A stretch of DNA of 64,000 nucleotides from Bacteroidota bacterium (lineage in GTDB: Bacteria > Bacteroidota > Bacteroidia > Bacteroidales > ML635J-15): contig JAKQEK010000152.1 in NCBI GenBank assembly GCA_029558535.1, forward strand, positions 46,346 through 110,345, written 5' to 3'. The number at the start of each line of letters is the position of its first letter. The first letter of the stretch is position 1. Both the position numbers and the translations under genes were made by a program. The notes under the pieces are model-generated. The model ran no database searches. It was not told the DNA's origin and was given only the letters and a program-made list of their open reading frames with translations. Shown here in pieces: positions 5,885 through 44,442 of the stretch.

Positions 5885-5895
5885 AAAATAAACTA

Positions 5896-25982: not shown

Positions 25983-26606
25983 ATGAAGAAATTTTACGAA
26001 CTAGCAGAAATGCCGCGATTGATGGAAGAGGGCCCCGTTACTTATTTCGGGTGTCCCTTTCATTTAAGAGTAGACGACAGCATAATCCATTATATAGCTG
26101 ACAAGTTGATATGGGATGCACCATATAGGGCTTTATTGTTTACAAATAGCCATTTGTTTACTATGGAGCTATTTGATAAGTTAAAGTCTACTTATGCACA
26201 ATATTCATACGAATATGATTATAGCCCGGAAAATTATTGTTTTGTGGACAAATCTGATGGAGGCGCGCAAAAAAGCGAAGTCCAGCTTTTTAATTTTTCT
26301 GGGAAAAAAGAATTATCTAAAAAAGTTAAAAAAGGATATTACGACAGGGCTTTTTTTCATTTTGTAGATGAAGACATATCCGGCCGTTTATCACAGGTGG
26401 TGGATTTGGCCAAGTCGTTGTCGTTTTTTACGCTAGATAGCGACACTTCGCTGTTTTATCAACTGGGAGAAGAAGGCATGGACAGTTTTTACAGGCTGTA
26501 TGACGATAAGAGCAACAAGAAGATAAACGAATTGGAGGCTGAGGATATAATTGATGCTGAAAAAGAGCGGTTGTGGAAGGGCCTTTTTGAAAAAAATATC
26601 AAGTAG
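25983..26606 (+). CDS. Hypothetical protein
   Basis: 207 residues, soluble, aromatic-rich, no recognised domain. It follows the glucosaminidase by two bases and ends five bases before the promoter of the RNA-repair unit, so it belongs to the lysis transcript. No membrane segment and no catalytic signature found. Confidence 0.45.
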   Translation: MKKFYELAEMPRLMEEGPVTYFGCPFHLRVDDSIIHYIADKLIWDAPYRALLFTNSHLFTMELFDKLKSTYAQYSYEYDYSPENYCFVDKSDGGAQKSEVQLFNFSGKKELSKKVKKGYYDRAFFHFVDEDISGRLSQVVDLAKSLSFFTLDSDTSLFYQLGEEGMDSFYRLYDDKSNKKINELEAEDIIDAEKERLWKGLFEKNIK

Positions 26607-26610
26607 GGGG

Positions 26611-26641
26611 TTGTATGTCTCGTTTATTATGCTTATGTTTG
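26611..26641 (+). promoter_or_regulatory. Bacteroidota-type promoter of RNA-repair unit (TTG-N20-TATGTTTG)
   Basis: TTG at 26611-26613 and TATGTTTG at 26634-26641 with exactly 20 bases between. Transcription should begin near 26645, giving a leader of about 48 bases before the nucleotidyltransferase. The following genes (to 30632) run in one direction with short gaps and no other promoter of this type, so they form one transcription unit. Confidence 0.75.
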
Positions 26642-26692
26642 TATTGCTTAATGTGATCAGACAATAGATTGTTTTAACAAAAAAAGTAAGCA

Positions 26693-27166
26693 ATGACTCT
26701 TAGAGAAATAACAGAATTCCATAGAAAAATCACGGAAAATTATCCGGAGATTGGATTGGCATATACAGGAAGTTTCGGATTGTGCCTTGAGGGCTATCTC
26801 AATCGGCTTCCAAATGATGTGGATATAGTCTTGTCCGAACAGGCGTTTGATCTTCTTAAACAAGAGGGTTCAAATGCAGTATACGGCGATGAAGGGGATC
26901 ATTATTCACTTAATATGTTTGGCGTAAAAATAGATGTTTTTTTAGATAGGGGGTATGATAAGAAAACAATTAGGGTGGTGAACACAAATTTCACCATAGT
27001 AGATGCAAGTGTTACTCTTGAAAAGAAAATGGAGTATATTGAAAAATATATAGGATTATTAAAACAAAGACATTCTTTATCAGAGCAAGCCTTTTGTGCT
27101 TTAAACAAGCACATTGCCGATTTAAATATCGCCAGTAAAGCAAAACGTTCTAATTTACCTTTCTAG
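26693..27166 (+). CDS. Small nucleotidyltransferase-fold protein
   Basis: 157 residues. TGSFGLCLEGYLNRLPNDVD gives the GS motif (Gly26, Ser27) and the paired acids (Asp42, Asp44) of the polymerase-beta-type nucleotidyltransferase fold; KIDVFLD supplies the third acid (Asp81). Such minimal enzymes transfer a nucleoside monophosphate to RNA, protein or small molecules; similar folds occur in tRNA-modifying toxins and in CCA-adding enzymes. It is the first gene after a promoter and upstream of Hen1 and RNA ligase genes, so an RNA 3'-end substrate is plausible. That is inference from context only. Confidence 0.6.
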   Translation: MTLREITEFHRKITENYPEIGLAYTGSFGLCLEGYLNRLPNDVDIVLSEQAFDLLKQEGSNAVYGDEGDHYSLNMFGVKIDVFLDRGYDKKTIRVVNTNFTIVDASVTLEKKMEYIEKYIGLLKQRHSLSEQAFCALNKHIADLNIASKAKRSNLPF

Positions 27167-27216
27167 TCGCCATAAAAAAAAAAAAAACAAAAAAATATAT
27201 AAGAAAACTTTTTATC

Positions 27217-27429
27217 AATGGAAACCGCGTTTCTCAAATTATCTTTGAAGATGGTCGCTCCACCAAAATTGAAGAGCTTGAAATAGACGAAATTGCAATA
27301 GTCGGCTTTCAAAAGGTCGATTTTGTAGATAGCTCAAAAAACACATCCATAATTCAAGGGAAAAACATAATAAGCGGGGCGAAAATAGAAATAAAAGGGG
27401 GAGGGAATTTTCATTTGGGAGATGAATAA
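27217..27429 (+). CDS. Small hypothetical ORF, start uncertain
   Basis: A frame of about 63 codons ends at TAA 27427-27429 and reads like protein (IIFEDGRSTKIEELEID, then ISGAKIEIKGGG). The nearest candidate start is ATG 27217 after a long A tract (27174-27200), but I could not confirm that this ATG is in frame. It sits 29 bases before Hen1 in the RNA-repair unit. Function unknown; a length change in the A tract could also affect expression. Confidence 0.3.
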   Translation, partial: NGNRVSQIIFEDGRSTKIEELEIDEIAIVGFQKVDFVDSSKNTSIIQGKNIISGAKIEIKGGGNFHLGDE

Positions 27430-27458
27430 AAAATTTTTTGTGATTCAATAAATGAACA

Positions 27459-28802
27459 ATGATAAAAATCAAATCAAACAATAAACACCTTTTTTCGATA
27501 TTGCAAGCTAATCCCGGATATTTAGAGGGGGTTTATCCAATGCGTATCAAAAATGGTATTGGGCTAGGGATTGTAGATCATAAAGCAAACGCATATAATA
27601 TCCTGTTTCAGGATACTAAATATTCGTATGCTGAAGATATGTCCAACCAGCTTGACCTGCAATCATTCTGCAATAGCAGGATTCTTTTGGATGTTTTTTC
27701 TGAGTGTATTAATTCTGTGTTTAAGACATGGGATGAGTATGCAAATCAGAAAACCCCATGGCTTGGCACTGGTTGTACTATACGAGATATAGACATTCCA
27801 AGCGAGTCTTCTATCGAATTCAATGCTTATATAGATTCTAATTGGGTTAGGGGCGATGGCGGCGGCCTTTTTGAAAAATATTTTGAAGGCGTCAAATTAC
27901 AGAAAATAGCTGGAAGGGCATACAGGGTTTTTATCAGCGGCAATATGACAATCTACCGCCTTCTTAACCAAGCGGCGTTGATAGCTATGTTTATCGCAGT
28001 TGTTAACCTACAAAAATGGAAGGTAACTGAGCAGCTTATTGAAAAATACATTAGAGTAATGAACAATATTGGCGATTTGCCATATTTCGTTGTATATCTT
28101 TTTAAGGTCAGGTTGCTATATAATGTTGATTGGTTTAATAAATATAAGCCTGATTTGGAGCAAATCGTTGGGGGTAAAGTACACCTCTCTTTTGGAAACA
28201 CGCACGACGTTCGCTTGGATTATATATGTGAGCATATTGACGGGAAGGTATCAGTCTTGGACGTTGGGTGCGGCGAATTTTTGTATGCCAAGCGCATAAT
28301 GAAAAAAATGAAAAGTACAAGTATTTATTATGCGCATGATGTAGAAGATTGGGGCAAAGTTGCTAATGCTGTCAATGACAGGTATAAAGTGGAATTGTGT
28401 TTTTCTACAGACTTGGATGCATTGATTGAAAAAATCAATGGGGCTCCAGTGGACGTGATACTTACAGAAGTAATTGAACACAATAGCCGAGAAGAGGCTA
28501 AAGCGCTCGTATTAAAAATACTAAACACATTAAACATCCGAAAGCTTATCGTCACAACGGTCAACGCCGATTTTAATGCACATTATAATTTAGAAGGTAA
28601 TGTTCGCCATCCCGATCATAAATTTGAAATGCACATGGATCAATTTATGTCTTTTTTTGATGACATTTTAGAAAAAGTTAAAGAAAATTATGATCTAACT
28701 GCGTTTCAATATATCCAGATCGGAGATAGCGTTTCTGGTGAAAGTCCAACACAGGGGGTAATGTATGTCGCCCCTGCATTTTTAGATGAAAAAAAAAAAT
28801 AA
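27459..28802 (+). CDS. hen1: Hen1-type 3'-terminal RNA ribose 2'-O-methyltransferase
   Basis: 447 residues, the usual length of bacterial Hen1. The C-terminal half has the SAM site LDVGCGEF (267-274), the metal motif EVIEH (Glu337, Glu340, His341), VTTVNADFN and RHPDHKFEM (His387), which together define HEN1. The N-terminal half (about 1-230) resembles the Hen1_L ligase-activating domain. Family knowledge: bacterial Hen1 methylates the 2'-OH at the 3' end of a cleaved tRNA before Pnkp seals it, protecting the repaired site from the same ribotoxin. The gene is followed after three bases by a Pnkp-type ligase, its known partner. Occurrence in a phage is notable. Confidence 0.88.
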   Translation: MIKIKSNNKHLFSILQANPGYLEGVYPMRIKNGIGLGIVDHKANAYNILFQDTKYSYAEDMSNQLDLQSFCNSRILLDVFSECINSVFKTWDEYANQKTPWLGTGCTIRDIDIPSESSIEFNAYIDSNWVRGDGGGLFEKYFEGVKLQKIAGRAYRVFISGNMTIYRLLNQAALIAMFIAVVNLQKWKVTEQLIEKYIRVMNNIGDLPYFVVYLFKVRLLYNVDWFNKYKPDLEQIVGGKVHLSFGNTHDVRLDYICEHIDGKVSVLDVGCGEFLYAKRIMKKMKSTSIYYAHDVEDWGKVANAVNDRYKVELCFSTDLDALIEKINGAPVDVILTEVIEHNSREEAKALVLKILNTLNIRKLIVTTVNADFNAHYNLEGNVRHPDHKFEMHMDQFMSFFDDILEKVKENYDLTAFQYIQIGDSVSGESPTQGVMYVAPAFLDEKKK

Positions 28803-28805
28803 ACA

Positions 28806-30017
28806 ATGAGAAAGTTATCATATAAAGACGTGTGGAGAAAAATAGAAAAATCTACTTTTTACCTCACTAAGGTCAAGACCCCACATTTTTCACCTACCAT
28901 ATCGCCAGCGCCTAAAGATGTAGATCTCAATGAAATAGAAAGCATATTTCAAGGCATTTCATATTATTTCAATATCGGGGTTAAAAGAATGATATTGCAG
29001 AAAAAATATATGGGGTCTTATTGCGATATAGAATTACATAAGGATATTTCTAAAAGCAGGTTTTTTTCTCGAAGCGGAAAACTAATTGATTATATAAACA
29101 GGGGCGATTTGCTAAAGGGAGTTGCTGAACTGCATAAAAAGATATTCTTAAATAGCGATTTAAGCTACGTTTTAATTGCTGCGGAACTGATGCCTTGGCC
29201 TGTCATGGGAAGGGGGTTAATCGACCGCGACTTTGAGGCTTATTATGCGTTATATAAAAGTCATATTAATGATATTGAAACTACAGGTATCTATGACAAA
29301 GTTGCTGCCATTAAAGAAACTTCAGGCTTCCAACATTTTTTGGAAGATTGGGAAGTATTAGGCGAAGCCGAATGCAAAAAAAAGTGGCCCCAACACACTG
29401 TAAGGCATTATAAGTGTATCATGGATTTCAACGTCTTGGATTTGAATGAATATAAGGATGGGCTAGACACTTATAGAGACAGGCTCGATTTATATGGTAA
29501 AGACGGCGAACTATATTTCCAGCCTTTTTCGGTTTTAAAATATGGGTATGTGAATGGGACAGAAATCATAGAGGATTCTAACATACGAGGTTTTAGATTT
29601 GTCAACAGCGATGAAAATGCATACGTTGTGTTAGATTTTGAAGAAAATAGTTTTGACGAAAACATATTAAAAGCTTATTCTTTTTTTGAAAAATGCACCT
29701 CAGAAGATGAGGAAGGTATTATGATAAAACCAGATCAGGTGTTCATAGAAGGCTCGCCCCCTGCTTTCAAGATACGCAATAACGAATACTTGACATTGAT
29801 TTACGGGATAAATTTCAAGAAAGATTACGATTATTATCTTAAGAACCGAAACATATATAAAAAGCAGATCGAATCTTCTAAGCAATGGCATATATCACAA
29901 GAATTGTTAAAAATACCATTGCAAACTATATCGCAAGAAAACGAAAATTATTGTAAGCTGGTAGCGTTGAGATTGGAATCCGAACATAGGTGTGTTAATT
30001 TGGATAGCAGGCTTTAA
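28806..30017 (+). CDS. Stand-alone Pnkp-type RNA ligase (adenylyltransferase)
   Basis: 403 residues. All ligase-domain landmarks of bacterial Pnkp are present in order: KYMGS (motif I, nucleophile Lys67), FFSRSG, ELMPWP (127-132), PFSVLKY, EGIMIKP (motif IV/V), NNEYLTLIYG and the C-terminal ALRLESE...DSRL. Cellular Pnkp is a three-domain protein (5' kinase, 2',3' phosphatase, ligase); here the kinase P-loop and the phosphatase metallo-domain are absent and the protein begins directly before the ligase domain. It follows Hen1 by three bases. Family knowledge: Pnkp ligase needs Hen1 to complete sealing. The end-healing steps must come from another gene or from the host. Confidence 0.88.
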   Translation: MRKLSYKDVWRKIEKSTFYLTKVKTPHFSPTISPAPKDVDLNEIESIFQGISYYFNIGVKRMILQKKYMGSYCDIELHKDISKSRFFSRSGKLIDYINRGDLLKGVAELHKKIFLNSDLSYVLIAAELMPWPVMGRGLIDRDFEAYYALYKSHINDIETTGIYDKVAAIKETSGFQHFLEDWEVLGEAECKKKWPQHTVRHYKCIMDFNVLDLNEYKDGLDTYRDRLDLYGKDGELYFQPFSVLKYGYVNGTEIIEDSNIRGFRFVNSDENAYVVLDFEENSFDENILKAYSFFEKCTSEDEEGIMIKPDQVFIEGSPPAFKIRNNEYLTLIYGINFKKDYDYYLKNRNIYKKQIESSKQWHISQELLKIPLQTISQENENYCKLVALRLESEHRCVNLDSRL

Positions 30018-30071
30018 ACTCGCCCTGTTTTGGTCTGCTTCAATAACAAATATCCCGATTAATTATGAAAG

Positions 30072-30632
30072 ATGAAAAAAAATACATCTAATATTTTTAT
30101 AAACCCGGAATTAGTATTGTCAAAAATAGTTGATGAACAACTTTTTTTCCCGAAATATTATGTGGCATTGGGCCCAGAACTGCGAAATGTGCATGCATTG
30201 CTTGCTATGAAAAGTTGTTGGGATTATTTTGAAGCAAGAGAAGAATATGAAAACATAATCCCAATCAAACAACAAATAGACGTTTTTTTTAAAAATTCGG
30301 CACCTCTTTCGTTTTATGCAAATGTCAAGGATATGAGTGAAATGATGTTGGCGCCTAACACAATAAACGAGGCGGAGCTTGTTATAAAAAGCGAAATGAT
30401 AAGGACGGGGAAGGCTTCTGAATACAGCTTTAAACATTTAAATAACATAGATGTAAATATCAACGTGGCGAGGCATTTTTCTTATTTTTATTTACCTGCT
30501 GTTTATAACTTTGTAATGATAAGCGATTTTAAAAATGAAAGTAACCTGCTGAAAGAGTTTTATGGAAACGGGGTAGTAGAACCAGAGCACATGGTTTTTT
30601 CTCTGCTAAAGAATGTTATGTCAACTTTTTGA
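30072..30632 (+). CDS. Hypothetical protein at end of RNA-repair unit
   Basis: 186 residues, mostly helical, no recognised motif. It is the last gene of the unit, 54 bases after the RNA ligase, and converges with the reverse-strand gene at 30638. Position suggests an accessory role in RNA repair, but it contains neither a P-loop nor a phosphoesterase signature, so it is not an obvious replacement for the missing Pnkp domains. Confidence 0.45.
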   Translation: MKKNTSNIFINPELVLSKIVDEQLFFPKYYVALGPELRNVHALLAMKSCWDYFEAREEYENIIPIKQQIDVFFKNSAPLSFYANVKDMSEMMLAPNTINEAELVIKSEMIRTGKASEYSFKHLNNIDVNINVARHFSYFYLPAVYNFVMISDFKNESNLLKEFYGNGVVEPEHMVFSLLKNVMSTF

Positions 30633-31361: not shown

Positions 31362-32063
31362 TTACATGTTTATCCCCATAAAATCGGCCAGCTTATTGAA
31401 TTTGGTTGGCTTGGTTTTCATATTTTCCTTGAAATCAGGGGCTTTCTGTATGTTTGGTTCGACTAGCTCTGGGCTCATATATGCCCAAGCGCCAATAGTT
31501 GAGGGCATTTGAACCCAATCCCAACAAATGAGGTCATATTCGGTAACGTATATTTTTTTATCCTTCATTTCCTGTACTTCTCCTACCCCTCTTGAAGATA
31601 TGCCGATCATTATGTCATGTTCAAATATTAAATTGGCTACCATATCAGCCCCGTTGGAAGCTATCCCCATCTGCCTATACCCTCGCGTTATAGGCAGTTT
31701 AACCTTGCCGATAACAGTAGCGCCGTCCCAATAGATATCTTCGATTAGAAGCCCTATTTGTTGGAGAGAAATGTTGGTGCTGTCCTCGTGGTCTACTGTG
31801 CCTACAGCAGACCTTCTTTTTACGTTTTCCATATAGGACTCTACAGCAGGTATTAAAATATCTTTGGCATATATCCTTTTGTTCCTGTTCTCTACCCCGT
31901 ATTTCTGTAATACACAGAAGATGCAGGGGTTGTCTAAAAACGTTTCTGGCTTGGCTTTTGCCTCTTTGATTATTGTTATGTTTTCTTTTATTAAACGGTC
32001 ATAATACCCATCGTTTTCTATTATATATCCGTAACCAGTTTCTCCTTCTTTGATTATTTTCAT
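31362..32063 (-). CDS. Prohead core serine protease (gp21/S80-like)
   Basis: 233 residues from ATG 32063; a TTG three codons upstream is also possible. Motifs: LQKYGVENRNKRIYAKDIL (about 52-70), GTVDHED with the catalytic His, VIGKVKL, GISSRGVGEV with the nucleophile Ser, and CWDWVQMPST. These match the T4 gp21-type prohead proteases, which cut scaffold and capsid precursors inside the prohead. The neighbouring portal and major capsid genes are not in this window. Reverse orientation separates it from the tail genes. Confidence 0.85.
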   Translation of the reverse strand: MKIIKEGETGYGYIIENDGYYDRLIKENITIIKEAKAKPETFLDNPCIFCVLQKYGVENRNKRIYAKDILIPAVESYMENVKRRSAVGTVDHEDSTNISLQQIGLLIEDIYWDGATVIGKVKLPITRGYRQMGIASNGADMVANLIFEHDIMIGISSRGVGEVQEMKDKKIYVTEYDLICWDWVQMPSTIGAWAYMSPELVEPNIQKAPDFKENMKTKPTKFNKLADFMGINM

Positions 32064-32180
32064 CTGAATCAATATTTACATATAAATAGTTGTTGCGCAT
32101 TGAAATATTGAAGGTATCAGGAGTAAGAATATTGACATAATGGCAGGAGGAGGAAAAAATATTTTGATATTGGCATTTAA

Positions 32181-32251: not shown

Positions 32252-32725
32252 ATGGGATATTTAAATGACTTATTTAAGCGCTTGGAACTTTTATTTAAGC
32301 ATCTTGAAAGTATGCCAAAAGATGTTGAACCCACCGTTAAGCGGTTTGATACGCCTTGGGGGAGCGTTTACTACCACCACACCGACATTTCATATAGCAG
32401 TCCAAACGGATGGGGGGTTCCTAGTGGCCAATATGTATCTGAAAAAGCATCAATAGAAGCTAAAATTCGAGCGTTAGAAGCTAATTTACAAGTACTAGTG
32501 TCAAAGGAGGATTATGAAAAGGCATCTAAGGTGCGCGACCAATTGAAGGAATTAAAGGAGAACTACAGGCAGTATGAACACAAGCTGGCAGATTTGGAAA
32601 AAATGAAAAAAGAGGCTGTAGAAGCACAAAATTATGAAGATGCTGCAAATTATAAGCGGGAGATAGAGGCGTTGATTCAAAATAACAAGGAGGCGTTGAT
32701 AGGAAATTCAGAAGGCGACGATTAA
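32252..32725 (+). CDS. UVR-motif coiled-coil protein
   Basis: 157 residues. Two UVR-type helical hairpins occur in the second half: SKEDYEKASKVRDQLKELKE and AQNYEDAANYKREIEALI (about 83-145). The same motif joins UvrB to UvrC and occurs in McsA-like adaptors, so a protein-protein contact role is likely. The N-terminal 65 residues are unrelated and rich in Tyr and Pro. A strong terminator lies 13 bases after the stop. Confidence 0.6.
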   Translation: MGYLNDLFKRLELLFKHLESMPKDVEPTVKRFDTPWGSVYYHHTDISYSSPNGWGVPSGQYVSEKASIEAKIRALEANLQVLVSKEDYEKASKVRDQLKELKENYRQYEHKLADLEKMKKEAVEAQNYEDAANYKREIEALIQNNKEALIGNSEGDD

Positions 32726-32737
32726 GTGGATAATCTC

Positions 32738-32792
32738 AAAAACGGCGTTTTCATCACCTCGCTTATTGGACAATGAAAGCGCCGTTTTTTTC
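32738..32792 (+). terminator. Intrinsic terminator after UVR-motif gene
   Basis: A 17-pair stem (32738-32754 with 32773-32789, one G-U pair, core ACGGCG/CGCCGT) with an 18-base loop, followed by T residues. The left arm begins with AAAAA, so it can also terminate the opposite strand, where the decayed methyltransferase fragment ends. Confidence 0.75.
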
Positions 32793-32846
32793 TTGGTTTT
32801 CATAGTAGAATCTCCCATATTTTAGCTTGAAGAGTATAATCTTCTC

Positions 32847-33050
32847 TCATAAACAAATTCTCCTGCCAAACGTTATATCAGCAATTCTTGGCTCTTCATG
32901 AACATGCAAGTTAAAAATTTCTTTGAAGAGATCTTCATTTCCTCCCAAATGGCCTGACATTATTATGTCCAAAGTGGCAATGCCAGATTGTACTTCATTT
33001 GGCATAACCTTGTCTTTTGACTTAAATTTTATAAACCAATTTGTTTGCAT
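32847..33050 (-). pseudogene. Truncated DNA methyltransferase remnant
   Basis: 67 residues. The segment ATLDIIMSGHLGG...FKEIFNLHV...PRIADITFGR reads like the first 60 residues of a phage-type DNA methyltransferase, where the final part (usually ADxTYGxGxFW) is the SAM-binding loop. Here the frame fails right after that loop: the original frame stops within four codons, and a shifted frame (GEFVYER...) continues only 15 codons. The catalytic domain is missing, and a terminator and unrelated genes follow. Family assignment is inferred from this short stretch; a small functional protein is the alternative. Confidence 0.45.
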
Positions 33051-33079
33051 AAAAAACTACTTAAGACAAAAAAAATTGC

Positions 33080-33087
33080 TATATTTG
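33080..33087 (+). promoter_or_regulatory. Possible promoter -7 box (TATATTTG)
   Basis: TATATTTG matches the Bacteroidota -7 consensus and lies 20 bases before the ATG at 33108. No TTG is found 19-21 bases upstream, so it is weaker than the other promoters listed. Confidence 0.4.
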
Positions 33088-33107
33088 AATATACGTAAAT
33101 CCATTAA

Positions 33108-33419
33108 ATGAGTTATCTGTTTACCTTATCTTTAGTAAGAAATAACAAAATACGGGAGGCTTATTTTTTAGATGGTTTTTTTTGCGAAGCGGATTTGCTA
33201 TCTTCTTTGTATAAAAAAACTCAAATAAAAGATTATTTTTACGTTGTTGATATCTTACCCTACATTGGATATGATAAAAAAACTGTAATAGGGATGTCAT
33301 TGGTTAATTATTTATTAGCAAACAACCAATTTCAAATGAGGTGTGGCACTTTTCGAATAGTAGATAAAAAACGAATAAAATATTATTTGAATATCTGCAA
33401 TTTAATACAGAAGCTGTGA
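33108..33419 (+). CDS. Tail-family protein (KYY-NI C-terminus), no LRR
   Basis: 103 residues. No recognised domain, but the C-terminal segment RIKYYLNICNLIQKL shares a hK-Y-Y-x-N-I-x-x-L pattern with five other proteins of this window (ending at 33867, 34569, 39979, 40401 and 42439). It is followed by two more members, so this is a local cluster of paralogues. Function unknown. Confidence 0.5.
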   Translation: MSYLFTLSLVRNNKIREAYFLDGFFCEADLLSSLYKKTQIKDYFYVVDILPYIGYDKKTVIGMSLVNYLLANNQFQMRCGTFRIVDKKRIKYYLNICNLIQKL

Positions 33420-33523
33420 AAATCGAATTTTTCCAATATTTAACTGGGAATACACATATAGAGGCACTAGCTTCTGAAGGCCAGCTTATCGGATTTGGCT
33501 TGAGTGGGCAATTCGCAGTATAG
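33416..33523 (+). CDS. Very small ORF (35 codons), doubtful
   Basis: A GTG start overlaps the previous stop by four bases (GTGA), and 35 codons follow, rich in Gly, Leu and Ala (EGQLIGFGLSGQ). Translational coupling is possible; it may instead be a remnant of a longer gene. No function can be assigned. Confidence 0.2.
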   Translation: MKIEFFQYLTGNTHIEALASEGQLIGFGLSGQFAV

Positions 33524-33546
33524 CTGGGATAAAAAAAACATCTATT

Positions 33547-33867
33547 ATGTATCAACAGATAAAAGTGAATATCAGGTTTAGCCTATCTTTAAAAGACAAT
33601 AGCAGCACCGTTGAAAGTTACGAGTTTTGGAATTTCGGCAACTTTTTTAAATTTTTAATAGCATTTGACGAAATTTTTAAGACTGTTAGCTACGAAATTC
33701 TTCTTATAGGATATAAAAGCATCCAAAAAAGAGACTTTTACGCTTTGTTGGCTGATCCACTTTGTTTAAAAATAACATATTCAAATTGTTTTGATGTAAA
33801 AAAAGATTTTGTTTTAGAAAAAAAAAGTTTAAAATATTATAGGAATATTATTTTTTTGTCCAAATAA
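33547..33867 (+). CDS. Tail-family protein (KYY-NI C-terminus)
   Basis: 106 residues, aromatic-rich (FWNFGNFFKFL near 28-38), no known domain. Ends in SLKYYRNIIFLSK, the shared tail of this family. It lies between a tail-family gene at 33108 and the leucine-rich-repeat member at 33910, all in one direction. Confidence 0.5.
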   Translation: MYQQIKVNIRFSLSLKDNSSTVESYEFWNFGNFFKFLIAFDEIFKTVSYEILLIGYKSIQKRDFYALLADPLCLKITYSNCFDVKKDFVLEKKSLKYYRNIIFLSK

Positions 33868-33909
33868 GTTTTTAATCTAATTAGGGGAGGGGAGGATAAA
33901 TTTATAATA

Positions 33910-34569
33910 ATGCTTTTTGAAGATTGGATTAGTAAGTTTAAGAATAAAAATGATCCTTCTAAACTGAGAAGCTTATATAGCCATACTATTAATTTAGTTA
34001 GTTTAGATGGCATTGAGGAATATTATAACTTGCGTCAACTTTGTGTTAACGATAATGAATTAACTACATTAAAAAATGTAAGTGTTCTTTCTAAATTAGT
34101 ATATTTAAATGTTTCTAATAATAGCTTAACTTCTTTAGAAGGAGTGGAATGTTTGCATAAGCTAACTTATTTAAACATTTCTAATAATAAATTTGATTCA
34201 TTAAAAGAGTTGGCCGGGCTATATGCTTTAAAAAGGTTAATCGTTTCTGGGTGTGGCTTAACCTCTATAGACGTATTTAAAAACATGAAAAAAATAAAGG
34301 GGTTAGATGTTTCTAACAATAATTTAACTTCGTTAGAAGGCATAAAATACTGCCACTGCCTATTAGAGTTGAATATATGCAATAATAATCTACTTTCGTT
34401 GGATGGGATAGAAAATCTAATAAATTTAGAGACGCTATATTGTGACGAAAACACAATCAAGCTACACAATTTAAAAACATTATATAAATTGAAATGCCTT
34501 AATGGGGAAAAGTTTGATTATGCGAAAATAAAGTATTATTATAATATAGTCGCCTTTTTAGGTAAGTAA
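33910..34569 (+). CDS. Leucine-rich-repeat protein of the tail family
   Basis: 219 residues. About seven LRR units of 22-23 residues (LxxLNVSNNSLTSLEGVE pattern) span residues 35-185. The start (FEDWISKFKNKNDPSKL) resembles that of the LRR gene at 63653, and the end (KIKYYYNIVAFLGK) is the shared family tail. The SDS22-like repeats form a curved protein-binding solenoid, so a host or phage protein partner is likely. No signal peptide, so probably intracellular. Confidence 0.7.
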   Translation: MLFEDWISKFKNKNDPSKLRSLYSHTINLVSLDGIEEYYNLRQLCVNDNELTTLKNVSVLSKLVYLNVSNNSLTSLEGVECLHKLTYLNISNNKFDSLKELAGLYALKRLIVSGCGLTSIDVFKNMKKIKGLDVSNNNLTSLEGIKYCHCLLELNICNNNLLSLDGIENLINLETLYCDENTIKLHNLKTLYKLKCLNGEKFDYAKIKYYYNIVAFLGK

Positions 34570-34772
34570 GAGGCATATTTTTATTTGCTTAATAGTCCTT
34601 CTCCTCACATGGAGTTGAAGTTTTTTGAAAAAGGTTGGTTTTAAGATACAACCCTTACTATCAAAAGTCAATTTGATGGAAGATTCGCTAAAATATTGTT
34701 TTTATAATCAAAAAAACTTTTCAATGCGTATGTTTTTTAGTATTTTTGTTGATATCAATAAATAACAAAATA

Positions 34773-36242
34773 ATGGCAATAATCAAGAATGGCCTGTCCG
34801 ACATGAAGAGAAAGGCAGTAGAAGCACAAAATTTTGTTATAGCTGAGGCATCGGAATATTTGAGGACAAATTCTGACGTAGTTATATCCGGGGCTGCTGG
34901 GACTGGAAAGACGACAATCACAAGAAAAATATTAGATAAAATATGTAAGCCGGGAGATAGGGTGTTGGTTTCTTGTTTTTCTCACCAAGGGTTAGGGGTA
35001 GCAAGAACTCATATGGCAAATAGTAACCTCTTTTGTAAATATGCAACTAATGCTTCTGCTGTGCATGCCGTCAGAAAAAGCTTGCCTGACGGCAGAGTGG
35101 TTTTTCTCCCTAAAGATAGGTTTAAGATTGAAAATGGCAAGCGCATTAGGGTTAAACCTCCTATAGAGTTAGCTGATGTAATAATAATGGAGGAGTGTTC
35201 ACAACTTAGTGAACAAATGCTATATATGATAGACCATTTAAGGCGCCCCGACAGCAAAGCAATATTCATGGGGGACATTTGCCAATTGCCTCCGCCAAAC
35301 AGGACAGACGGAGAAAAATATTCGAGAGTATTTGACAAGCATACTTTTGAATTGACGCACCCCTATAGGTATGAAGGGTATGTAGCAGAATGTGCTTCGC
35401 ATATAAGGGCCAACATTTTAAACGGGGTGCACAACAAAAATTTCGATCCTTATTGCTGGCGAGATTTTATCAATAGTGGCAAAGAGTTTGATATAATCGA
35501 CGATCATAAGGTTTTTGATGATATGATGTTAAATGCTTTTAGAAGCGATTGGTATGCGACTAAATATATAGCATATAATAATTGGGCGTATCAGAAAAAA
35601 GGCAAATGGATACGAAATAAAATAAAACCCAATGTGTTTGATTTTGAAGTGGGAGACGACATTATTTCAAAATCTAATTATTATAAGAAAAATACGCTCA
35701 TAATACCAAACAGCTATCAAGGTGTTATTAAAGGCAAAAGGATGATGCGATCTGCTATTATATGGATAAAAAATCTTGGGCACCCTCAATTTTATTGTTT
35801 ACATACAAAAAAGTATGATAATGAAGGGGGATTACAGAAATATTATGCTCAGTTGTTGAATCTGTATGTTGAAGACATAAAAGTAGAAGAATTAAAATAT
35901 TGGTGTCATGATATTGACAACCAAAAGTTTATCCCGACTTTACCTTGCAACCCCAAGCAGTGGGAAGGGATATTGAATAGGCTGAAAAGCAGAGATTCAA
36001 TCCACCCTCTGACTGATTACAACCACAATTGGGAAGCATATCAGGAAGTTGAAGATTTCTTCTGTGATATTCAATATGCTTACGCACTTACTTCACATAC
36101 TGCACAGGGCAGCACTTATAAAGACGTATTTGTAAGCATCAGGAATATTTTCGCTCAAGAAAAAATTAGCAGTTTAGAAATGCTGCAAAGCTTATATGTT
36201 GCTGTAACCAGAGCTACTAATATGGTGTTGGGGCTATATTAA
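34773..36242 (+). CDS. Dda-like superfamily 1 helicase
   Basis: 489 residues from ATG 34773, preferred to ATG 34746 because of its A-rich start context and because the upstream residues are unlike the family. Motifs: GAAGTGKT (Walker A, 40-47), IIMEECSQ (II), GDICQLPPP (III), ALTSHTAQGSTY (V) and YVAVTRA (VI). This is the SF1B arrangement of T4 Dda and RecD, 5'-3' DNA helicases used in phage replication start and recombination. The large insertion between motifs III and V matches the SH3 and pin regions of that family. A possible TATTTTTG box lies at 34741-34748, with only TTT at the -33 position. The 203-base gap before the gene holds nothing else obvious. Confidence 0.85.
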   Translation: MAIIKNGLSDMKRKAVEAQNFVIAEASEYLRTNSDVVISGAAGTGKTTITRKILDKICKPGDRVLVSCFSHQGLGVARTHMANSNLFCKYATNASAVHAVRKSLPDGRVVFLPKDRFKIENGKRIRVKPPIELADVIIMEECSQLSEQMLYMIDHLRRPDSKAIFMGDICQLPPPNRTDGEKYSRVFDKHTFELTHPYRYEGYVAECASHIRANILNGVHNKNFDPYCWRDFINSGKEFDIIDDHKVFDDMMLNAFRSDWYATKYIAYNNWAYQKKGKWIRNKIKPNVFDFEVGDDIISKSNYYKKNTLIIPNSYQGVIKGKRMMRSAIIWIKNLGHPQFYCLHTKKYDNEGGLQKYYAQLLNLYVEDIKVEELKYWCHDIDNQKFIPTLPCNPKQWEGILNRLKSRDSIHPLTDYNHNWEAYQEVEDFFCDIQYAYALTSHTAQGSTYKDVFVSIRNIFAQEKISSLEMLQSLYVAVTRATNMVLGLY

Positions 36243-36279
36243 AAAATACAGGATATTAGATAAAAAATCTATGGACGGG

Positions 36280-36310
36280 TTGTTTTATTCATAAAAATGG
36301 GTTAACTTTG
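36280..36310 (+). promoter_or_regulatory. Bacteroidota-type promoter, leaderless arrangement (TTG-N20-TAACTTTG)
   Basis: TTG at 36280-36282 and TAACTTTG at 36303-36310, 20 bases apart. The first ATG (36316) is only five bases after the -7 box, so the transcript should start at or within a few bases of that codon, implying a leaderless message. Confidence 0.7.
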
Positions 36311-36315
36311 TGCTA

Positions 36316-36498
36316 ATGAATAAGAAAAAAGTTAGTATAGTAAATGATGAGGCTTCTTATGAAGAAGAAGCCCAGCAAATAAAGTTGGCGCTTGAAAGAA
36401 TAAAGGCTGAAAACAGCATATTGAGACGAAGGCTTCAGAGCTTTGCAGAGTTGCCAAAATTGCATGTAGTTATTTCAAAACTAAATAAAGCCAATTGA
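36316..36498 (+). CDS. Small coiled-coil protein
   Basis: 60 residues from ATG 36316; an in-frame GTG at 36310 overlaps the promoter box and is rejected. The centre (about 15-45) is a heptad-like helix (EEEAQQIKLALERIKAENSI), suggesting a dimer. It is probably translated from a near-leaderless message. A 32-residue membrane peptide follows immediately. Function unknown. Confidence 0.5.
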   Translation: MNKKKVSIVNDEASYEEEAQQIKLALERIKAENSILRRRLQSFAELPKLHVVISKLNKAN

Positions 36499-36597
36499 AT
36501 GGGCCGCGAACGACAAATAAAAATAAGCGAACGCATTGTAGGCGTCAGCTTATTTCTAATAATTATCTTACTTTTTATAAGTTTTTTCTTAACATAA
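36499..36597 (+). CDS. Single-pass membrane micropeptide
   Basis: 32 residues: a charged N-terminus (GRERQIKISER) then one hydrophobic helix (about 13-31, LFLIIILLFISFF). The ATG directly abuts the upstream TGA, and the next gene starts four bases after its stop, which supports a real gene in a tight operon. Function unknown. Confidence 0.5.
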   Translation: MGRERQIKISERIVGVSLFLIIILLFISFFLT

Positions 36598-36601
36598 AAA
36601 A

Positions 36602-36922
36602 ATGAATTTTCTATATAAATTGATTATACCGGCATGTTCGCCGTATGTTGTTGAGCTATATAACTTGGCAACTAAAAACCCTGAAAGCATCTTTAAGAAG
36701 CAAATACAGGGAGAGTATTTTAGGCATATAAAATATGTGTCGAGATCAACCAATGCTCCGATAGTACACAAGTTGGAAGAACATCGCTATCCGGGCATAT
36801 CATATCGCCATTTGGTGGTTGCAAATGGCCAGACGAAAGAATTGAAGATATATCCGCTAGATAGGTGGGCAATTAGAAATATATTTTTTGAATACTATGA
36901 TTCTTTTGAAGAAGAGTTATAA
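36602..36922 (+). CDS. Hypothetical protein
   Basis: 106 residues, soluble, basic centre, acidic C-terminus. No domain recognised. It lies between the membrane micropeptide and the MoxR-like ATPase in the same direction with a 25-base gap, so it may be expressed with the ATPase/VWA pair. Confidence 0.45.
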   Translation: MNFLYKLIIPACSPYVVELYNLATKNPESIFKKQIQGEYFRHIKYVSRSTNAPIVHKLEEHRYPGISYRHLVVANGQTKELKIYPLDRWAIRNIFFEYYDSFEEEL

Positions 36923-36947
36923 TCATTAAAATAAATCAAAAAAAAAG

Positions 36948-38171
36948 ATGGATGAGATAACCGAAAATATACCTGCATTCGAAAGCAGTGATTTCTTTTA
37001 TAAAGATTTGACTGAATTCGAACAAATGGTCTGGAGGCTGATGAAGCCAAACAAGGGGGTTGTAAACCTTATGTCCCCTCCGGGCTTTGGAAAAACAGCT
37101 TTTGCCAAAAGCTTTGCTGAAAAAATTGGTAAACTGTTTATCGAACTTCACTTGACTTCATATGAAGAGACGGATATAGCTGGGTATCCTCGCGTCAAGT
37201 TGCATAATGATACGGAGGTTATGCATTATGCGATACCAGAATGGGCAGTACTTGCATACGAGTCAGCGACAGGTACGGTGACATTGATGGATGAAGCCAA
37301 CCGATGTAAGCCTGCTGTAATGAATGCTACATTAAGAATCCTAAACGAAAAAAGGATTGGATATTCATTTAGGTATAAGCCTAATGATTATTTTATCTTG
37401 ACCGGCAACCTTGGCTCTTTCTCCAAAGAAGGAGATGGTGCTGAGGTAAACGCATTTGATAGCGCTATGATGGGGCGCCTTTATCCAATCAATCTGTTAG
37501 ATTATATAGGGATGTGGAACGAACATTGGATTAAAGTAGTGGGCCCCACTATTTGTAAACCTCTTTTGAATTATTTAAAAACTAATCCCCATATGATATA
37601 CCAATATAACGAGGAAAATGGAGAAGAAGCATATCCATCTCACAGGAGCAATACGAACCTATCAGAGCATCTGAGGGCTAATTTAGGCGACGACAAATTC
37701 AATAGCATTCCGCACATCTTATCACTAAAAAACGATTTCCCTATGATTATAGGGCCAGCCGCTGCTTATAAGTTCATTGCCTATCTACATGACATGAACA
37801 AAATAAACGGGATGTCAATAATGGATGGACTAGATACAATATGGGATATTGTTAAAGAATATCCTAAATCTCGTCATCAGGAGTTGTTAGACGACATAAA
37901 AAACAACTTCAAATTCGAAACTATCACGAAAAGGCAGACTGACAACCTTAAGACTTACTTAATGTTTGTGGGAGAAACATTAGGGTTAGACGACGTAGTA
38001 GCTGGGATGTTGGATTTCTTATTCAATTATGACATCCCCGACTATGAAAGAGAAGAGGAAAGAGATCAAGAACATTTAAATAGGCTGAAAGAATATAGGT
38101 TTGTGACACCATATTTTGCAGACTTGATAGAAAAAATGAAGCCAGAGTTACCATTTGAAATAGTAGAATAA
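36948..38171 (+). CDS. MoxR-type AAA+ ATPase
   Basis: 407 residues. Walker A SPPGFGKT (43-50), Walker B VTLMDEANR, sensor-1 region FILTGNLG and arginine-rich stretches fit the MoxR/AAA_5 group of AAA+ chaperone ATPases. MoxR proteins act with a von Willebrand A partner to remodel or metallate target complexes; the next gene, six bases downstream, encodes exactly such a partner. Start ATG chosen after an A-rich stretch typical of this genome. Confidence 0.75.
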   Translation: MDEITENIPAFESSDFFYKDLTEFEQMVWRLMKPNKGVVNLMSPPGFGKTAFAKSFAEKIGKLFIELHLTSYEETDIAGYPRVKLHNDTEVMHYAIPEWAVLAYESATGTVTLMDEANRCKPAVMNATLRILNEKRIGYSFRYKPNDYFILTGNLGSFSKEGDGAEVNAFDSAMMGRLYPINLLDYIGMWNEHWIKVVGPTICKPLLNYLKTNPHMIYQYNEENGEEAYPSHRSNTNLSEHLRANLGDDKFNSIPHILSLKNDFPMIIGPAAAYKFIAYLHDMNKINGMSIMDGLDTIWDIVKEYPKSRHQELLDDIKNNFKFETITKRQTDNLKTYLMFVGETLGLDDVVAGMLDFLFNYDIPDYEREEERDQEHLNRLKEYRFVTPYFADLIEKMKPELPFEIVE

Positions 38172-38177
38172 AATATC

Positions 38178-39407
38178 ATGCTAAATAACTGTCCGGGTGC
38201 ACAGCGTTTAAAGGATATTATAATTCCATTGCTGAATACATATGACTCAAAAAGCAGGGAATACAGCTTTTACGCCTGGTTTTCATTATATATAAATTTT
38301 ACAGCAGATACCAATATACCAACAGGCGGAGTAAGGATATCTAAAAATGGCATGGAACTTAGGTATAACCCTGAGTTTTTGATGTCTTTGCCAGATAAAG
38401 CATTAAAATATTTTTGGCTGCACGAATTATTGCATTTATTGCAAAGGCACAATTATAGGTTAGTAATGCAAAACCATAAAATAGAAACTGCCAATATTGC
38501 AATGGATGTAGTAGTAAACGAACAGCTTAATACACATATCTCGACGGATTTTGCCGACTATAAACACAGTAAGTTAGAATCCGGCATTTTTTTAAAAAAT
38601 ATTGAAGCTGCAATTGGGCAAGTATATGAAGGTCGGTTGATGTATGAGGATGTATACAAATGGCTTATTAATAATGCAGAGGAGGGGTCAGAGTATAGCC
38701 CATCGTCAGGCGCCGGGAGGAATGTCGATAAGGACAATATAGCTTTGCCTGGCCAACACGTTCGGCAATTTGACGTACATTTGAAGGATGAGGTATCTAC
38801 TGAAGAATCATTGCAAATTATTGACAACGTTATTAATACATTGAAAAGCAGGGGTTTGGTTAGTGGGGGGGCAGAAGCCCTAATTAAAAATTTAAGGTCA
38901 AGCAAAAAGGATTATTTGAAAATATTTGCTGTAGCATGTTTGGGTATGCATGGGAATACTGTAGAAAAAACTTACATGCGGCCTAATAAAAAAATAGATG
39001 GCCTTAAAGGAAACAAATCTAGTGGCAGAGAAGTGGCAGTTATCTTAGACACTTCAGGGAGTATGACAGGCAGTTTTGAAATCGCCATTTCTAATTTGTT
39101 TAGGCAGGGGTATATAATACAATTTATACAATGCGATACTGAAGTTAAAAGCCATATTAAAATAAATTCCCCATCTCAGTTTAAACAGATCAAACTAAAA
39201 GGGGGAGGCGGTACGACATTACAGCCTGCCGTTGATTATATCCGGGAAAACAAGAGGCTGAGGGGATTAAACCTAGTCATATTGACGGACGGCTATACTG
39301 ATTGTTTAGATACATCGGGCATAGCTAAAACCCTTATATTGACGGTTGGGGTAGAATGCCGCATTAAAAGGGGAAGAGTAAAACAAGTTGTAATACTACA
39401 AGACTGA
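38178..39407 (+). CDS. VWA-like putative metallopeptidase (DUF2201-type)
   Basis: 409 residues. Near residue 82 WLHELLHLLQRH carries an HExxH zinc motif. The C-terminal third is a VWA domain: VILDTSGSM (MIDAS DxSxS, near 292), GGGGTTLQP and LTDGYTD. This two-domain layout matches DUF2201-type proteins, normally encoded beside a MoxR ATPase, as here. In such pairs the ATPase probably acts on a target recruited by VWA. The substrate in a phage is not known; virion assembly or host protein remodelling are both possible. Confidence 0.75.
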   Translation: MLNNCPGAQRLKDIIIPLLNTYDSKSREYSFYAWFSLYINFTADTNIPTGGVRISKNGMELRYNPEFLMSLPDKALKYFWLHELLHLLQRHNYRLVMQNHKIETANIAMDVVVNEQLNTHISTDFADYKHSKLESGIFLKNIEAAIGQVYEGRLMYEDVYKWLINNAEEGSEYSPSSGAGRNVDKDNIALPGQHVRQFDVHLKDEVSTEESLQIIDNVINTLKSRGLVSGGAEALIKNLRSSKKDYLKIFAVACLGMHGNTVEKTYMRPNKKIDGLKGNKSSGREVAVILDTSGSMTGSFEIAISNLFRQGYIIQFIQCDTEVKSHIKINSPSQFKQIKLKGGGGTTLQPAVDYIRENKRLRGLNLVILTDGYTDCLDTSGIAKTLILTVGVECRIKRGRVKQVVILQD

Positions 39408-39412
39408 AATAA

Positions 39413-39979
39413 ATGTCGGACGAATTATATTCGATTTTACATTATAACATCAGCAACCTTGTTTATACAGACGAGCTTGACTTATCCAATCTTTGGATAT
39501 TTGATATTGATATGGTATTAAGAATGGATAAGTTTCAAGAAAAAATTGGCAAGTTGGATATACGAAATAATGATATCAGATCAATTGCAGGTATCCAAAA
39601 TTGCAAACGCCTGGTATATATTAATATTTCACACAATAATATTAGAACTTTTCGTTCGCTACCGCTTCTTATAGAACAACTATTAATACAGGATAACCTG
39701 ATTAATAAAATTATCTTGCGAAGATATTACGAAAAGTTGCATTATTTAGATATATCAAATAATAATATAAATGATTTAGACTTTCTTAAATTTTGCCCTA
39801 ATTTAAGACACCTGAATATAAACAATAACCCAATAAAAAATATATCTCCTATTTGTAAATTAAAATCATTAGAATGTTTAGAGGTTAATGAAAGAAAATA
39901 TCATAAAGAATGCATTTTAGAAATAAAACAAGGTTTGAAGTATCAAAAAAACATGAAATTTTTAACGACAAATGGTTAG
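39413..39979 (+). CDS. Leucine-rich-repeat protein of the tail family
   Basis: 188 residues with about five irregular LRR units (KLDIRNNDIRSIAGIQ, YLDISNNNINDLDF) and the family tail LKYQKNMKFL at its end. It starts five bases after the VWA gene. Its last 70 bases overlap the following family member in another frame, an unusually long overlap. Confidence 0.65.
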   Translation: MSDELYSILHYNISNLVYTDELDLSNLWIFDIDMVLRMDKFQEKIGKLDIRNNDIRSIAGIQNCKRLVYINISHNNIRTFRSLPLLIEQLLIQDNLINKIILRRYYEKLHYLDISNNNINDLDFLKFCPNLRHLNINNNPIKNISPICKLKSLECLEVNERKYHKECILEIKQGLKYQKNMKFLTTNG

Positions 39980-40401
39980 GAGGAATCCATCCTTATATAG
40001 CAGAATTAAAAAAATATAATATTTTAGATGATTTTTTTGAAACGACTGAAAATCTTACAGGTTCGACGCTCCCTTTAATGTATATTTATAAAAAAAGAGA
40101 TTTTTTGTTTGAACGGTTTATATGTGAGTATATATGCCAATTTAAAAAATTAAGAAGAATCTCTTATTATCCCTTAAAAACCGTTGATTTATCGCCTTTA
40201 TCTGAGTGTGATACAATAGTAGGGATAGAAGTACCTCTTTTTAGTGTAAAAGACTTGTCGTTTGTACTTAAATTAAATAATTTAGCCTATATAGGCGAAT
40301 ATGGGATTGGAGGCGTTTACCGCCACAGTGATGGTACTTTAACTGACTTAAAAAAACGTTTAAAATATAAAAAAAATATATTATTCCTGTCTAATGATTG
40401 A
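39910..40401 (+). CDS. Tail-family protein, start uncertain
   Basis: 163 residues if started at the ATG at 39910 inside the previous gene. The protein-like part begins about 39970 (GGIHPYIAEL), right after an AGGAGG, with no ATG, GTG or TTG there; the next ATG is residue 57. Ends in RLKYKKNILFLSN, the shared tail. Leucine-rich segments occur (LSPLSE, LKLNNLAYI) but no clear LRR. The overlap may reflect a frameshift that separated one gene into two. The stop overlaps the next gene by eight bases. Confidence 0.45.
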   Translation: MHFRNKTRFEVSKKHEIFNDKWLGGIHPYIAELKKYNILDDFFETTENLTGSTLPLMYIYKKRDFLFERFICEYICQFKKLRRISYYPLKTVDLSPLSECDTIVGIEVPLFSVKDLSFVLKLNNLAYIGEYGIGGVYRHSDGTLTDLKKRLKYKKNILFLSND

Positions 40402-41134
40402 AGTATCAATAACTAAAGAACAAATAGAAAGAGCGAAAAATTTGTATGGGTTTTATAACATACCCAACTCCTTTACTAAAGGAGAAAGTCAAATATATGG
40501 GGCTTTAGGGGAAATAATATTTGCAGATTACTATAATTTAAATAAATCTTCACATATTGGCGACAAAGATTATGATTTTTTATATAGGAATAAAAAAATA
40601 GAAATAAAAACGAAAAAAACCTCTAAACGCCCCCTTCCTTATTATTTGTGTTCCATTCCAATAAACTCCCTGTTTCAAAAATGCGACGAATATGTTTTCG
40701 TTCGTATATTAAAAGACATGACAAAAGGTTGGATATGCGGTTGGATTACAAAAAAGAATTTTTTTAATATGGGATTTTATAGCCGAGAGGGAGAAATAGA
40801 CCCTACTTCTAACGATGGTTATACATTTAAAGAAGAGTGTATCAGCGTTGCGATTAACGTACTTAGAGTTGAATATTACGGAGACCTGACTAGCGAGTTT
40901 TTGAGCCAGTATTTTAATATATCTCAAGAAAAACCATTTATAAACAGCGATTATAAGAAATTTAAATGTATAGACGGAGGAGAGTCTACTATTAAAATAA
41001 TTTATGAATTTGAAAAAAATAAGTTGACAGTGCAAGAATTGCAACGAGGGAATATTTTCGATGGGCATATAAATACAAAAAACCAGTTTTTGTATTTATT
41101 TGATAAATTCTTTAGGTTACAGTTAGCTGGCTAG
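40394..41134 (+). CDS. PD-(D/E)XK nuclease-like protein
   Basis: 246 residues. GALGEIIFADYY (Glu40), then KDYDFLYRNKKIEIKTKK with Asp59/Asp61 and EIK (Glu70, Lys72), gives the E-D-ExK core of restriction-endonuclease-fold proteins. The C-terminal 120 residues have no match I recognise. Such stand-alone nucleases in phages degrade host DNA, repair ends or act as homing-type enzymes. It overlaps the tail-family gene upstream by eight bases. Confidence 0.6.
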   Translation: MIEVSITKEQIERAKNLYGFYNIPNSFTKGESQIYGALGEIIFADYYNLNKSSHIGDKDYDFLYRNKKIEIKTKKTSKRPLPYYLCSIPINSLFQKCDEYVFVRILKDMTKGWICGWITKKNFFNMGFYSREGEIDPTSNDGYTFKEECISVAINVLRVEYYGDLTSEFLSQYFNISQEKPFINSDYKKFKCIDGGESTIKIIYEFEKNKLTVQELQRGNIFDGHINTKNQFLYLFDKFFRLQLAG

Positions 41135-41192
41135 TCGAGAATTTCATTAGATAAGTGTATAGTTTGTTTCTTCTATTTATAAGAAAAATAAT

Positions 41193-41921: not shown

Positions 41922-41952
41922 TGTTGAAAACAACAGATATGGCTATTATATT

Positions 41953-42231
41953 TTAAACGATATCCTGTTTGAATTCTATTAATAACCTACCTATAAACTG
42001 TTCAAATAGAGGTATGCTACAGAATTTTATTAATTCAATCTCTTCTAGTATGTCATATTCGCCTACTGGCATGATACTTAATATCCAATTATGGCCGTCA
42101 GTTTTTCTCACGCTTATATGTTCGTCAAATACCCCAAACTTTTCATAGTCGTATGAGTGTAGCATGAATGCAGAATCATTTATTTTTTTGAATTTCCTGC
42201 TTGTAAAATAACCTTCTGATATTGTTTTCAT
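41953..42231 (-). CDS. Hypothetical protein
   Basis: 92 residues, mixed alpha/beta with no known motif. It overlaps the upstream gene (42228-42449) by four bases (ATGA), so the two are translationally coupled. It is the last gene of a reverse-strand operon running from 43971. Confidence 0.45.
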   Translation of the reverse strand: MKTISEGYFTSRKFKKINDSAFMLHSYDYEKFGVFDEHISVRKTDGHNWILSIMPVGEYDILEEIELIKFCSIPLFEQFIGRLLIEFKQDIV

Positions 42232-43229: not shown

Positions 43230-43260
43230 ATAGAAAAGTTAATAGCTTATCTGTCGTAAA

Positions 43261-43971: not shown

Positions 43972-44073
43972 AGTTTTTCTTTTTTATTAAAATGTACAAA
44001 TAGAGATATTTAGCCATACAAATATAGCAATAATATATTAAAGCAGATAGCGAAGGCCCTCAAATGTTTTTTA

Positions 44074-44265: not shown

Positions 44266-44295
44266 GTGGTAGATTTTTAATCTGTTAAAACAATA

Positions 44296-44430: not shown

Positions 44431-44442
44431 TGTGTTAAATTT

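Follow-up and report, generated by a model that had tools for sequence, protein, structure and literature searches.

The 64,000-nucleotide stretch analysed here (the window; positions 46,346 to 110,345 of contig JAKQEK010000152.1, Bacteroidota bacterium assembly GCA_029558535.1) carries, within 26611..30632, two adjacent genes encoding a homologue of the RNA methyltransferase Hen1 and an ATP-dependent RNA ligase, Rnl, and these very likely constitute a phage-borne RNA-repair pair. Their counterparts are found in the Pnkp1-Rnl-Hen1 complex of bacteria, rather than in the Pnkp-Hen1 system suggested by a sequence-only reading of the same DNA, which had proposed a unit of the 'Hen1 plus Pnkp' type. 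What the sequence itself supports is the family assignment of both proteins, their near-full length, their catalytic residues, their adjacency and the presence of phage genes on the same contig. Both genes are real and look intact, and lie on the same strand with a spacing of 3 bases:

27459..28802, plus strand: Hen1 (447 aa), from PDB and Pfam matches and motif residues
28806..30017, plus strand: Rnl, a stand-alone ATP-dependent RNA ligase (403 aa), from PDB and Pfam matches

When compared with PDB using phmmer, the first of these proteins matches chain C of 4xrp, the Hen1 subunit of the Pnkp1-Rnl-Hen1 complex, over residues 2-435 (E 9.4e-63), and contains Hen1_N (PF22032) above the curated cut-off (E 4e-39). 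Residues 1-235 form the N-terminal ligase-activating domain, and the C-terminal part is the 3'-terminal RNA 2'-O-methyltransferase domain, with motifs starting at residues 268 (DVGCGE, the S-adenosylmethionine (SAM) motif), 336 (TEVIEH) and 383 (RHPDHKFE). Residues E337, E340, H341 and H387, which we take from the HEN1 literature to be the metal site (EXXEH...H), are identical in all 89 aligned Hen1 sequences, the subset of 96 phmmer matches retained by an E cut-off of 1e-15 and a length filter of 380-480 aa; the SAM motif is also retained. The activating domain and the metal-site motif are therefore both present in the window protein.

The ligase matches chain B of 4xrp, the Rnl subunit of the same complex, over residues 14-403 (E 3.4e-84), and far less well the Pnkp ligase domain known from the other bacterial system (E 6.5e-10); a profile of 19 Rnl sequences ranks them likewise (E 4.1e-152 and 2e-33). 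All of its PDB matches, six by phmmer and six by profile, are Rnl or Pnkp ligase chains, and no ligase of the T4-type Rnl1 family is among them. PNKP_ligase (PF16542) is found above its curated cut-off (E 9.3e-20), and residues K67 (the nucleotidyl lysine of motif I), R89, E127, E303, K322 and R324 are invariant across the 19-sequence alignment (A1). Motifs start at residues 67 (KYMGS), 127 (ELMPW), 302 (EEGIMIKP) and 321 (FKIRN), and YLTLIYG and LESE occur as well, so that every signature motif quoted by the sequence-only reading is present in the two genes, and both domains that it expected are recovered by profile search. Its phage-borne Hen1 with an RNA ligase also stands, but the Pnkp type does not. 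The Pnkp-Hen1 equivalogs score far below their cut-offs (TIGR04074, 57.3 against 340 bits; TIGR04075, 57.8 against 750 bits), the 403-aa protein comprises the ligase only where a Pnkp would require kinase and phosphatase domains, and kinase searches of the 110-kb contig returned none. In a tree of 54 sequences, for which bacterial rows were thinned and one sequence (P0005) omitted, the window ligase falls among Bacteroidota Rnl proteins, separated from fused Pnkp (support 100/100). Given the better match to Rnl and the missed equivalog cut-offs, the ligase is, on these comparisons, of the Rnl rather than the Pnkp type.

The window makes up the final 64 kb of its contig (hereafter C55, 110,345 bases; its assembly is G000), and structural genes suggest that this contig is phage. 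Besides the protease listed below, it encodes a baseplate wedge subunit (E 8.3e-14), a DnaB-like helicase and a ribonucleotide reductase, and the best named relatives of its helicase-methylase at >90% coverage are from Tenacibaculum phages.

31362..32072, minus strand: head maturation protease (phrog_207, E 2.4e-25)

A search with 8 kb of window DNA returned no matching phage record, and no 16S gene was found in G000. A further phage-like fragment in the bin, C209 (L014/L015), has homologues of six C55 genes (32507-44736) in the same order and encodes a protein of 298 aa whose C-terminal part is a kinase domain; as a missing part of the phage, C209 was ruled out by its composition (r 0.48).

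A kinase that very probably belongs to the same phage lies on another contig of G000, C213 (33,175 bases), in an open reading frame (ORF) that extends upstream into a tRNA-Pro gene and that we read from an inner start at residue 38, giving about 160 aa. Among PDB chains it is closest to chain A of 4xrp, the Pnkp1 subunit (E 4.5e-5), T4 polynucleotide kinase scoring less well (0.018), and alignment with 12 Pnkp1 sequences by hhalign gives a probability of 97.8%. The P-loop lysine, the RDD..R motif and R126 are retained; the protein is too short to include a phosphatase half. One phage relative is present in Arthrobacter phage Atuin; in IMG/VR, neither this kinase nor Rnl, each used as a single-sequence query, returned any relatives. 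C213 and C55 are very probably parts of the same phage, as judged from composition and from their ends. The tetranucleotide correlation of C213 with C55 is 0.957, to be read beside values of 0.960-0.974 for eight overlapping 33-kb pieces of C55, 0.77-0.95 for its single 10-kb pieces and 0.39-0.71 for 13 other contigs; for codon usage the correlation is 0.974-0.977, and 0.81-0.89 for three other contigs. C55 runs out within a leucine-rich-repeat gene whose start is present but whose stop is missing, the reversed C213 opens within one that includes the stop but not the start, and the repeat DNA of the two contigs is 73-84% identical. C213 also encodes tRNA-Leu, a CCA-adding enzyme (PF01743, E 2.3e-23) and a metallophosphoesterase (PF00149, E 6.7e-8); two further PF00149 proteins are encoded on C55, of which the second is probably the SbcD-like partner of its neighbour.

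Window 33910-34569 and 63653-64000 (C55 109998-110345), and C213 30192-33174: leucine-rich-repeat gene family
C55 19582-20265: GDIHG-type PF00149 protein (E 6e-17)
Window 14388-15197: PF00149 protein adjoining an SbcC-like gene (E 4.7e-7)

Pnkp1 itself, a T4-type kinase fused to a HAD phosphatase, was not found: no phrog_505 or AAA_33 match occurs on C55, and no C55 ORF matched the HAD motif pattern. Across G000, phrog_505 and our alignment A2 match kinase positions only, on C209 and C213, and no other Rnl was found at threshold, PF16542 occurring on C55 only. Calls of absence rest on phrog_505 and PF13671, since A2 missed two genomes (G003 and G004) in which phrog_505 matched.

Among cellular genomes the pair is usually accompanied by the kinase. 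One pattern scan recovered 72 bacterial loci, comprising 57 with a stand-alone Rnl and Pnkp1 in the locus and 15 with a fused Pnkp. Judged by record title, all but one of the 57 are from Bacteroidota, the remaining one being a Limnohabitans metagenome-assembled genome, and the exact order hen1-rnl-pnkp1 is seen in 47, an order that the window therefore shares as far as its two genes go. Two Taibaiella loci (L057 and L104) have an extra Pnkp1-like gene upstream of hen1 in addition to that after rnl, and in L044 the sole Pnkp1 is upstream of hen1.

Hen1-ligase pairs also occur in other phages. Rnl is present in 31 other viral records, 26 from IMG/VR and five phages (XacN1, RAS14, CM1, RYC and sm033); all five phages have the Rnl-Hen1 pair, and 24 of the 26 IMG/VR loci have a Hen1 match, the ligase ORF being at least 600 aa long in 21 of the 26. 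The kinase gene adjoins hen1 in XacN1 and RAS14. In Vibrio phages RYC and sm033 and in IMG/VR contig L021, Hen1 is fused to a T4-type kinase-phosphatase (709-726 aa; L003:10101-12254, L006:9089-11269 and L021:11333-13462) beside a stand-alone Rnl. When whole viral records were searched, phrog_505 matched in 19 of 21, and also in nine of 14 control genomes, so that a match is not specific; nine other IMG/VR records were searched whole with A2 only. The closest viral relatives of the window, L016 (G001, 335 kb) and L017 (G002, 185 kb), may be fragments, and contain no phrog_505 or PF13671 match over their whole records. In L016 a second RNA ligase (5567-6655; PF09414, E 6.4e-8) lies shortly upstream of hen1, and an 884-aa ORF at L041:8465-11119, recognised by the profiles of Hen1 (2e-29) and of Rnl (9e-22) alike, is possibly a Hen1-ligase fusion.

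The interface between ligase and kinase bears on how these proteins are coupled. In the crystallised complex, Pnkp1 residues R29, R33 and K110 are described as salt-bridged to Rnl E369 and D379, with pairwise partners unstated, and there is also a D36-K4 bridge (PMC4411300). Position 379 of Rnl seemed non-discriminating when taken alone, being K instead of D in 22 of the 57 Rnl proteins adjacent to Pnkp1; pairing it with Pnkp1 position 29 resolved this as a charge swap. The combinations are D with K or R in 34 loci, K with E in 22 and D with E in one, leaving the two positions oppositely charged in 56 of 57. This pattern suggests that Rnl 379 contacts Pnkp1 29, and is evidence for the crystal contact in further species. 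The viral clade that includes C55, L016, L017 and metagenome homologues (13 sequences, support 98/90, plus the near-identical P0005) departs from this, since residue 379 is uncharged in 13 of its 14 members, the exception being K in P0012. The window Rnl has L at 379; in the C213 kinase, position 29 falls in a gap and position 33 is N. E369 is not discriminating, being acidic in 56 of 57 bacterial sequences and in nine of 14 from the viral clade, the window Rnl included. With one Rnl-Pnkp1 contact lost in the viral clade, the pair may be uncoupled from its kinase. A wider proposal would be that this viral lineage has freed the sealing half of the bacterial system from the healing half, the kinase being scattered or gone, and that a free ligase-methylase mends whatever ends it meets and methyl-marks the tRNA; we offer this tentatively, and think it somewhat doubtful.

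In proposing a function, we favour as probable, with appreciable room for error, a model in which Rnl and Hen1 form a heterodimer that seals breaks bearing a 5'-phosphate and a 3'-hydroxyl and 2'-O-methylates the 3' end, the targets likely being tRNAs cleaved in the infected cell by anticodon nucleases of the host. That Hen1 would activate Rnl, and that the two would suffice for healed ends, is carried over from the C. gingivalis complex: Wang et al. 2015 describe Rnl-Hen1 without Pnkp1 as ligating healed ends faster than the hexamer does, and RNA repaired in the presence of SAM as resistant to colicin D (PMC4411300). The 5' ends would likely be phosphorylated by the kinase-only Pnkp1 relative of C213, encoded at a distance of about 54 kb should the two contigs adjoin. 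This kinase is probably free or loosely bound, given that one Rnl-Pnkp1 contact has been lost from both partners. The search revealed no HAD phosphatase half, so removal of 3' phosphates would fall to a calcineurin-type phosphoesterase of the phage or to the host. The 2'-O-methyl mark would then protect the mended tRNA from a second cut by nucleases that depend on the 2'-OH, of the PrrC or RloC type.

Several observations count against this model. The 3'-healing enzyme is a guess; the activity of the pair and each biochemical step are read across from homologues; and target RNA, nuclease and host are all putative. No terminase match was obtained on C55 or C213, the four PF03237 matches in G000 all being on other contigs, which leaves phage identity to a few structural genes, and the composition of C55 is unlike the rest of the bin. 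The C213 kinase is short and diverged, with L where R122 of Pnkp1 is nearly invariant, and its link to C55 is indirect, no 15-mers being shared between the terminal 300 bases of the two contigs, as is to be expected if the break falls within the repeats. Kinase matches are absent from L016 and L017, so that the clade as a whole may not use a kinase. K110 and D36 in the C213 kinase and E369 in Rnl are kept, so the interface may partly remain, which lowers the odds both of the favoured model and of uncoupling, and the change at 379 is confined to one clade and may thus represent few events.

The same evidence must be weighed for other explanations. The pair could dispense with healing and mend only the 5'-phosphate/3'-hydroxyl breaks that a metal-dependent tRNase would make, for example AriB of PARIS, which is reported to leave a 3'-OH with a 5'-phosphate expected; the lack of any kinase match on C55 or in the whole of L016 and L017 would suit this, as would the loss of a contact residue in the clade and the ability of the characterised Rnl-Hen1 to ligate healed ends unaided. 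We nevertheless regard it as unlikely, because a Pnkp1-like kinase is encoded on C213, very probably in the same phage, because L016 and L017 may be fragments, and because 2'-O-methylation should not block two-metal nucleases that attack with water, so that Hen1 would be of little use. Alternatively, the infecting phage's pair might dock on a Pnkp1 of its Bacteroidota host, which would thus supply the third subunit. Bacteroidota operons with Pnkp1 are indeed the closest relatives among cells, and E369 is kept, but G000 has no other Rnl at threshold, its Pnkp1 matches cover the kinase part only and one docking residue is lost, making this very unlikely.

A different role altogether, in processing or protecting the ends of the phage's own RNAs (tRNAs or small RNAs, for example) instead of repairing what the host has cut, is encouraged by the tRNAs and CCA-adding enzyme that the phage probably possesses, and by the report that the in vivo substrates of the bacterial complexes were unknown as of 2015. 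Against this, the homologous complex is characterised as sealing tRNA cut by ribotoxins, and sets of phage ligases and kinases have been interpreted in print as answers to tRNA cleavage; we consider such a role improbable. As for a true Pnkp-Hen1 system, the PNKP_ligase and Hen1_N domains would be expected of it, but a pair that misses both equivalogs, and whose ligase has no kinase or phosphatase domains and is placed by the tree with Bacteroidota Rnl, leaves that assignment hardly credible. Repair of host-cut tRNA by the Rnl-Hen1 heterodimer remains the reading we prefer.

The system so envisaged has analogues of varying closeness. With the Pnkp1-Rnl-Hen1 complex (as described in PMC4411300) it shares near-full-length Hen1 and Rnl, catalytic residues and the usual hen1-rnl order, and differs in being phage-borne, in having no Pnkp1 adjoining rnl or found elsewhere on the contig, only a kinase-only relative on another, in losing the contact at Rnl 379 and in lacking any detected HAD 3'-phosphatase half. 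Bacterial Pnkp-Hen1 resembles it in combining a Hen1 activation domain and methyltransferase with a related ligase, but there kinase, metallophosphatase and ligase are one protein, whereas the window ligase stands alone. T4 Pnkp/Rnl1 is likewise a phage-borne kinase and ligase; the window differs in having a ligase of another family, an added Hen1 and a kinase (on C213) without the HAD domain. Among large phages, Xanthomonas phage XacN1 and Stenotrophomonas phages RAS14 and CM1 have Rnl and Hen1 that are approximately 25-27% identical to those of the window, with the difference that in XacN1 and RAS14 the kinase is encoded next door, and Vibrio phages RYC and sm033 share both proteins, although their Hen1 carries the fused kinase-phosphatase. 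A putative Pnkp1-Rnl-Hen1 is also described for Borg extrachromosomal elements (PMC11208441), a likeness by description that extends to a non-chromosomal, albeit archaeal, setting.

Phage carriage of Hen1 with a ligase is not new, since PNKP and a Hen1 homologue were described for XacN1 in 2018; in our alignment the XacN1 'PNKP' (ORF197) is a stand-alone Rnl. A 2021 survey of jumbo phages treats ligases, kinases, phosphoesterases or phosphatases and nucleotidyltransferases as phage repair sets, in an RNA-repair section that does not mention Hen1. Among the matches listed from the open-licence literature, taken as titles and the beginnings of abstracts, no paper concerned a phage Rnl-Hen1 uncoupled from its kinase.

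T4 is described as mending cut tRNA without a methyl mark, so that it can be cut again (PMC4411300). With Hen1 at hand, a phage would combine repair and protection of the tRNA in a single step, and this could be part of how large phages outlast anticodon nucleases; the 2'-O-methyl stamp of an uncoupled pair would, if our tentative proposal is true, keep a host nuclease from a second cut. Should the attacker be a two-metal tRNase such as AriB, no healing would be needed and the mark would probably not be protective. A phage with a defined attacker would also offer a route to the in vivo substrate of such complexes, and the charge-swapped contact allows the evolution of the sealing module apart from its kinase to be tested.

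The genes flanking the pair are less informative, and are as follows:

30072..30632, plus strand: 186-aa protein of no assigned family, in the place usually occupied by pnkp1 in Bacteroidota operons
26693..27166, plus strand: candidate Pol-beta-type nucleotidyltransferase (157 aa; GSFG...DVD...KIDVF, read by eye)

The 186-aa gene starts 54 bases past rnl and is possibly co-transcribed with hen1-rnl, a link by association only. Its product has no family match in Pfam, PHROG or NCBIfam and a single homologue besides itself (60% identical), and its AlphaFold model is unusable (predicted local distance difference test score (pLDDT) 37.6). Two uncharacterised proteins had been assigned to the unit; this one does lie inside 26611..30632, but the second (25983-26606) falls just outside.

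The nucleotidyltransferase, also assigned to the unit, has no Pfam match to E 1, no PHROG match to E 0.1 and no significant PDB match; its best NCBIfam match is weak (E 0.033) and its AlphaFold model unusable (pLDDT 41), so that assigning it to RlaP or another Pol-beta repair family would be tentative at most. A gap of 292 bases separates it from hen1, and its only homologues at E <= 0.001 are its own identical cluster, so its membership of the repair unit is not supported and a single unit is doubtful. Nor did the consensus promoter proposed for that unit survive scrutiny: promoter-like sites in the region number 24, compared with 21.8 +/- 5.2 in shuffled sequence, and are thus not above chance, and the promoter scan found none on the plus strand at 26607-26692. 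A single 9/12 match precedes hen1, at 27326-27353. Between the nucleotidyltransferase and hen1, past a poly-A tract, there is an open frame of about 75 codons (27172-27428) that has no standard start codon and yet seems, by eye, to be coding.

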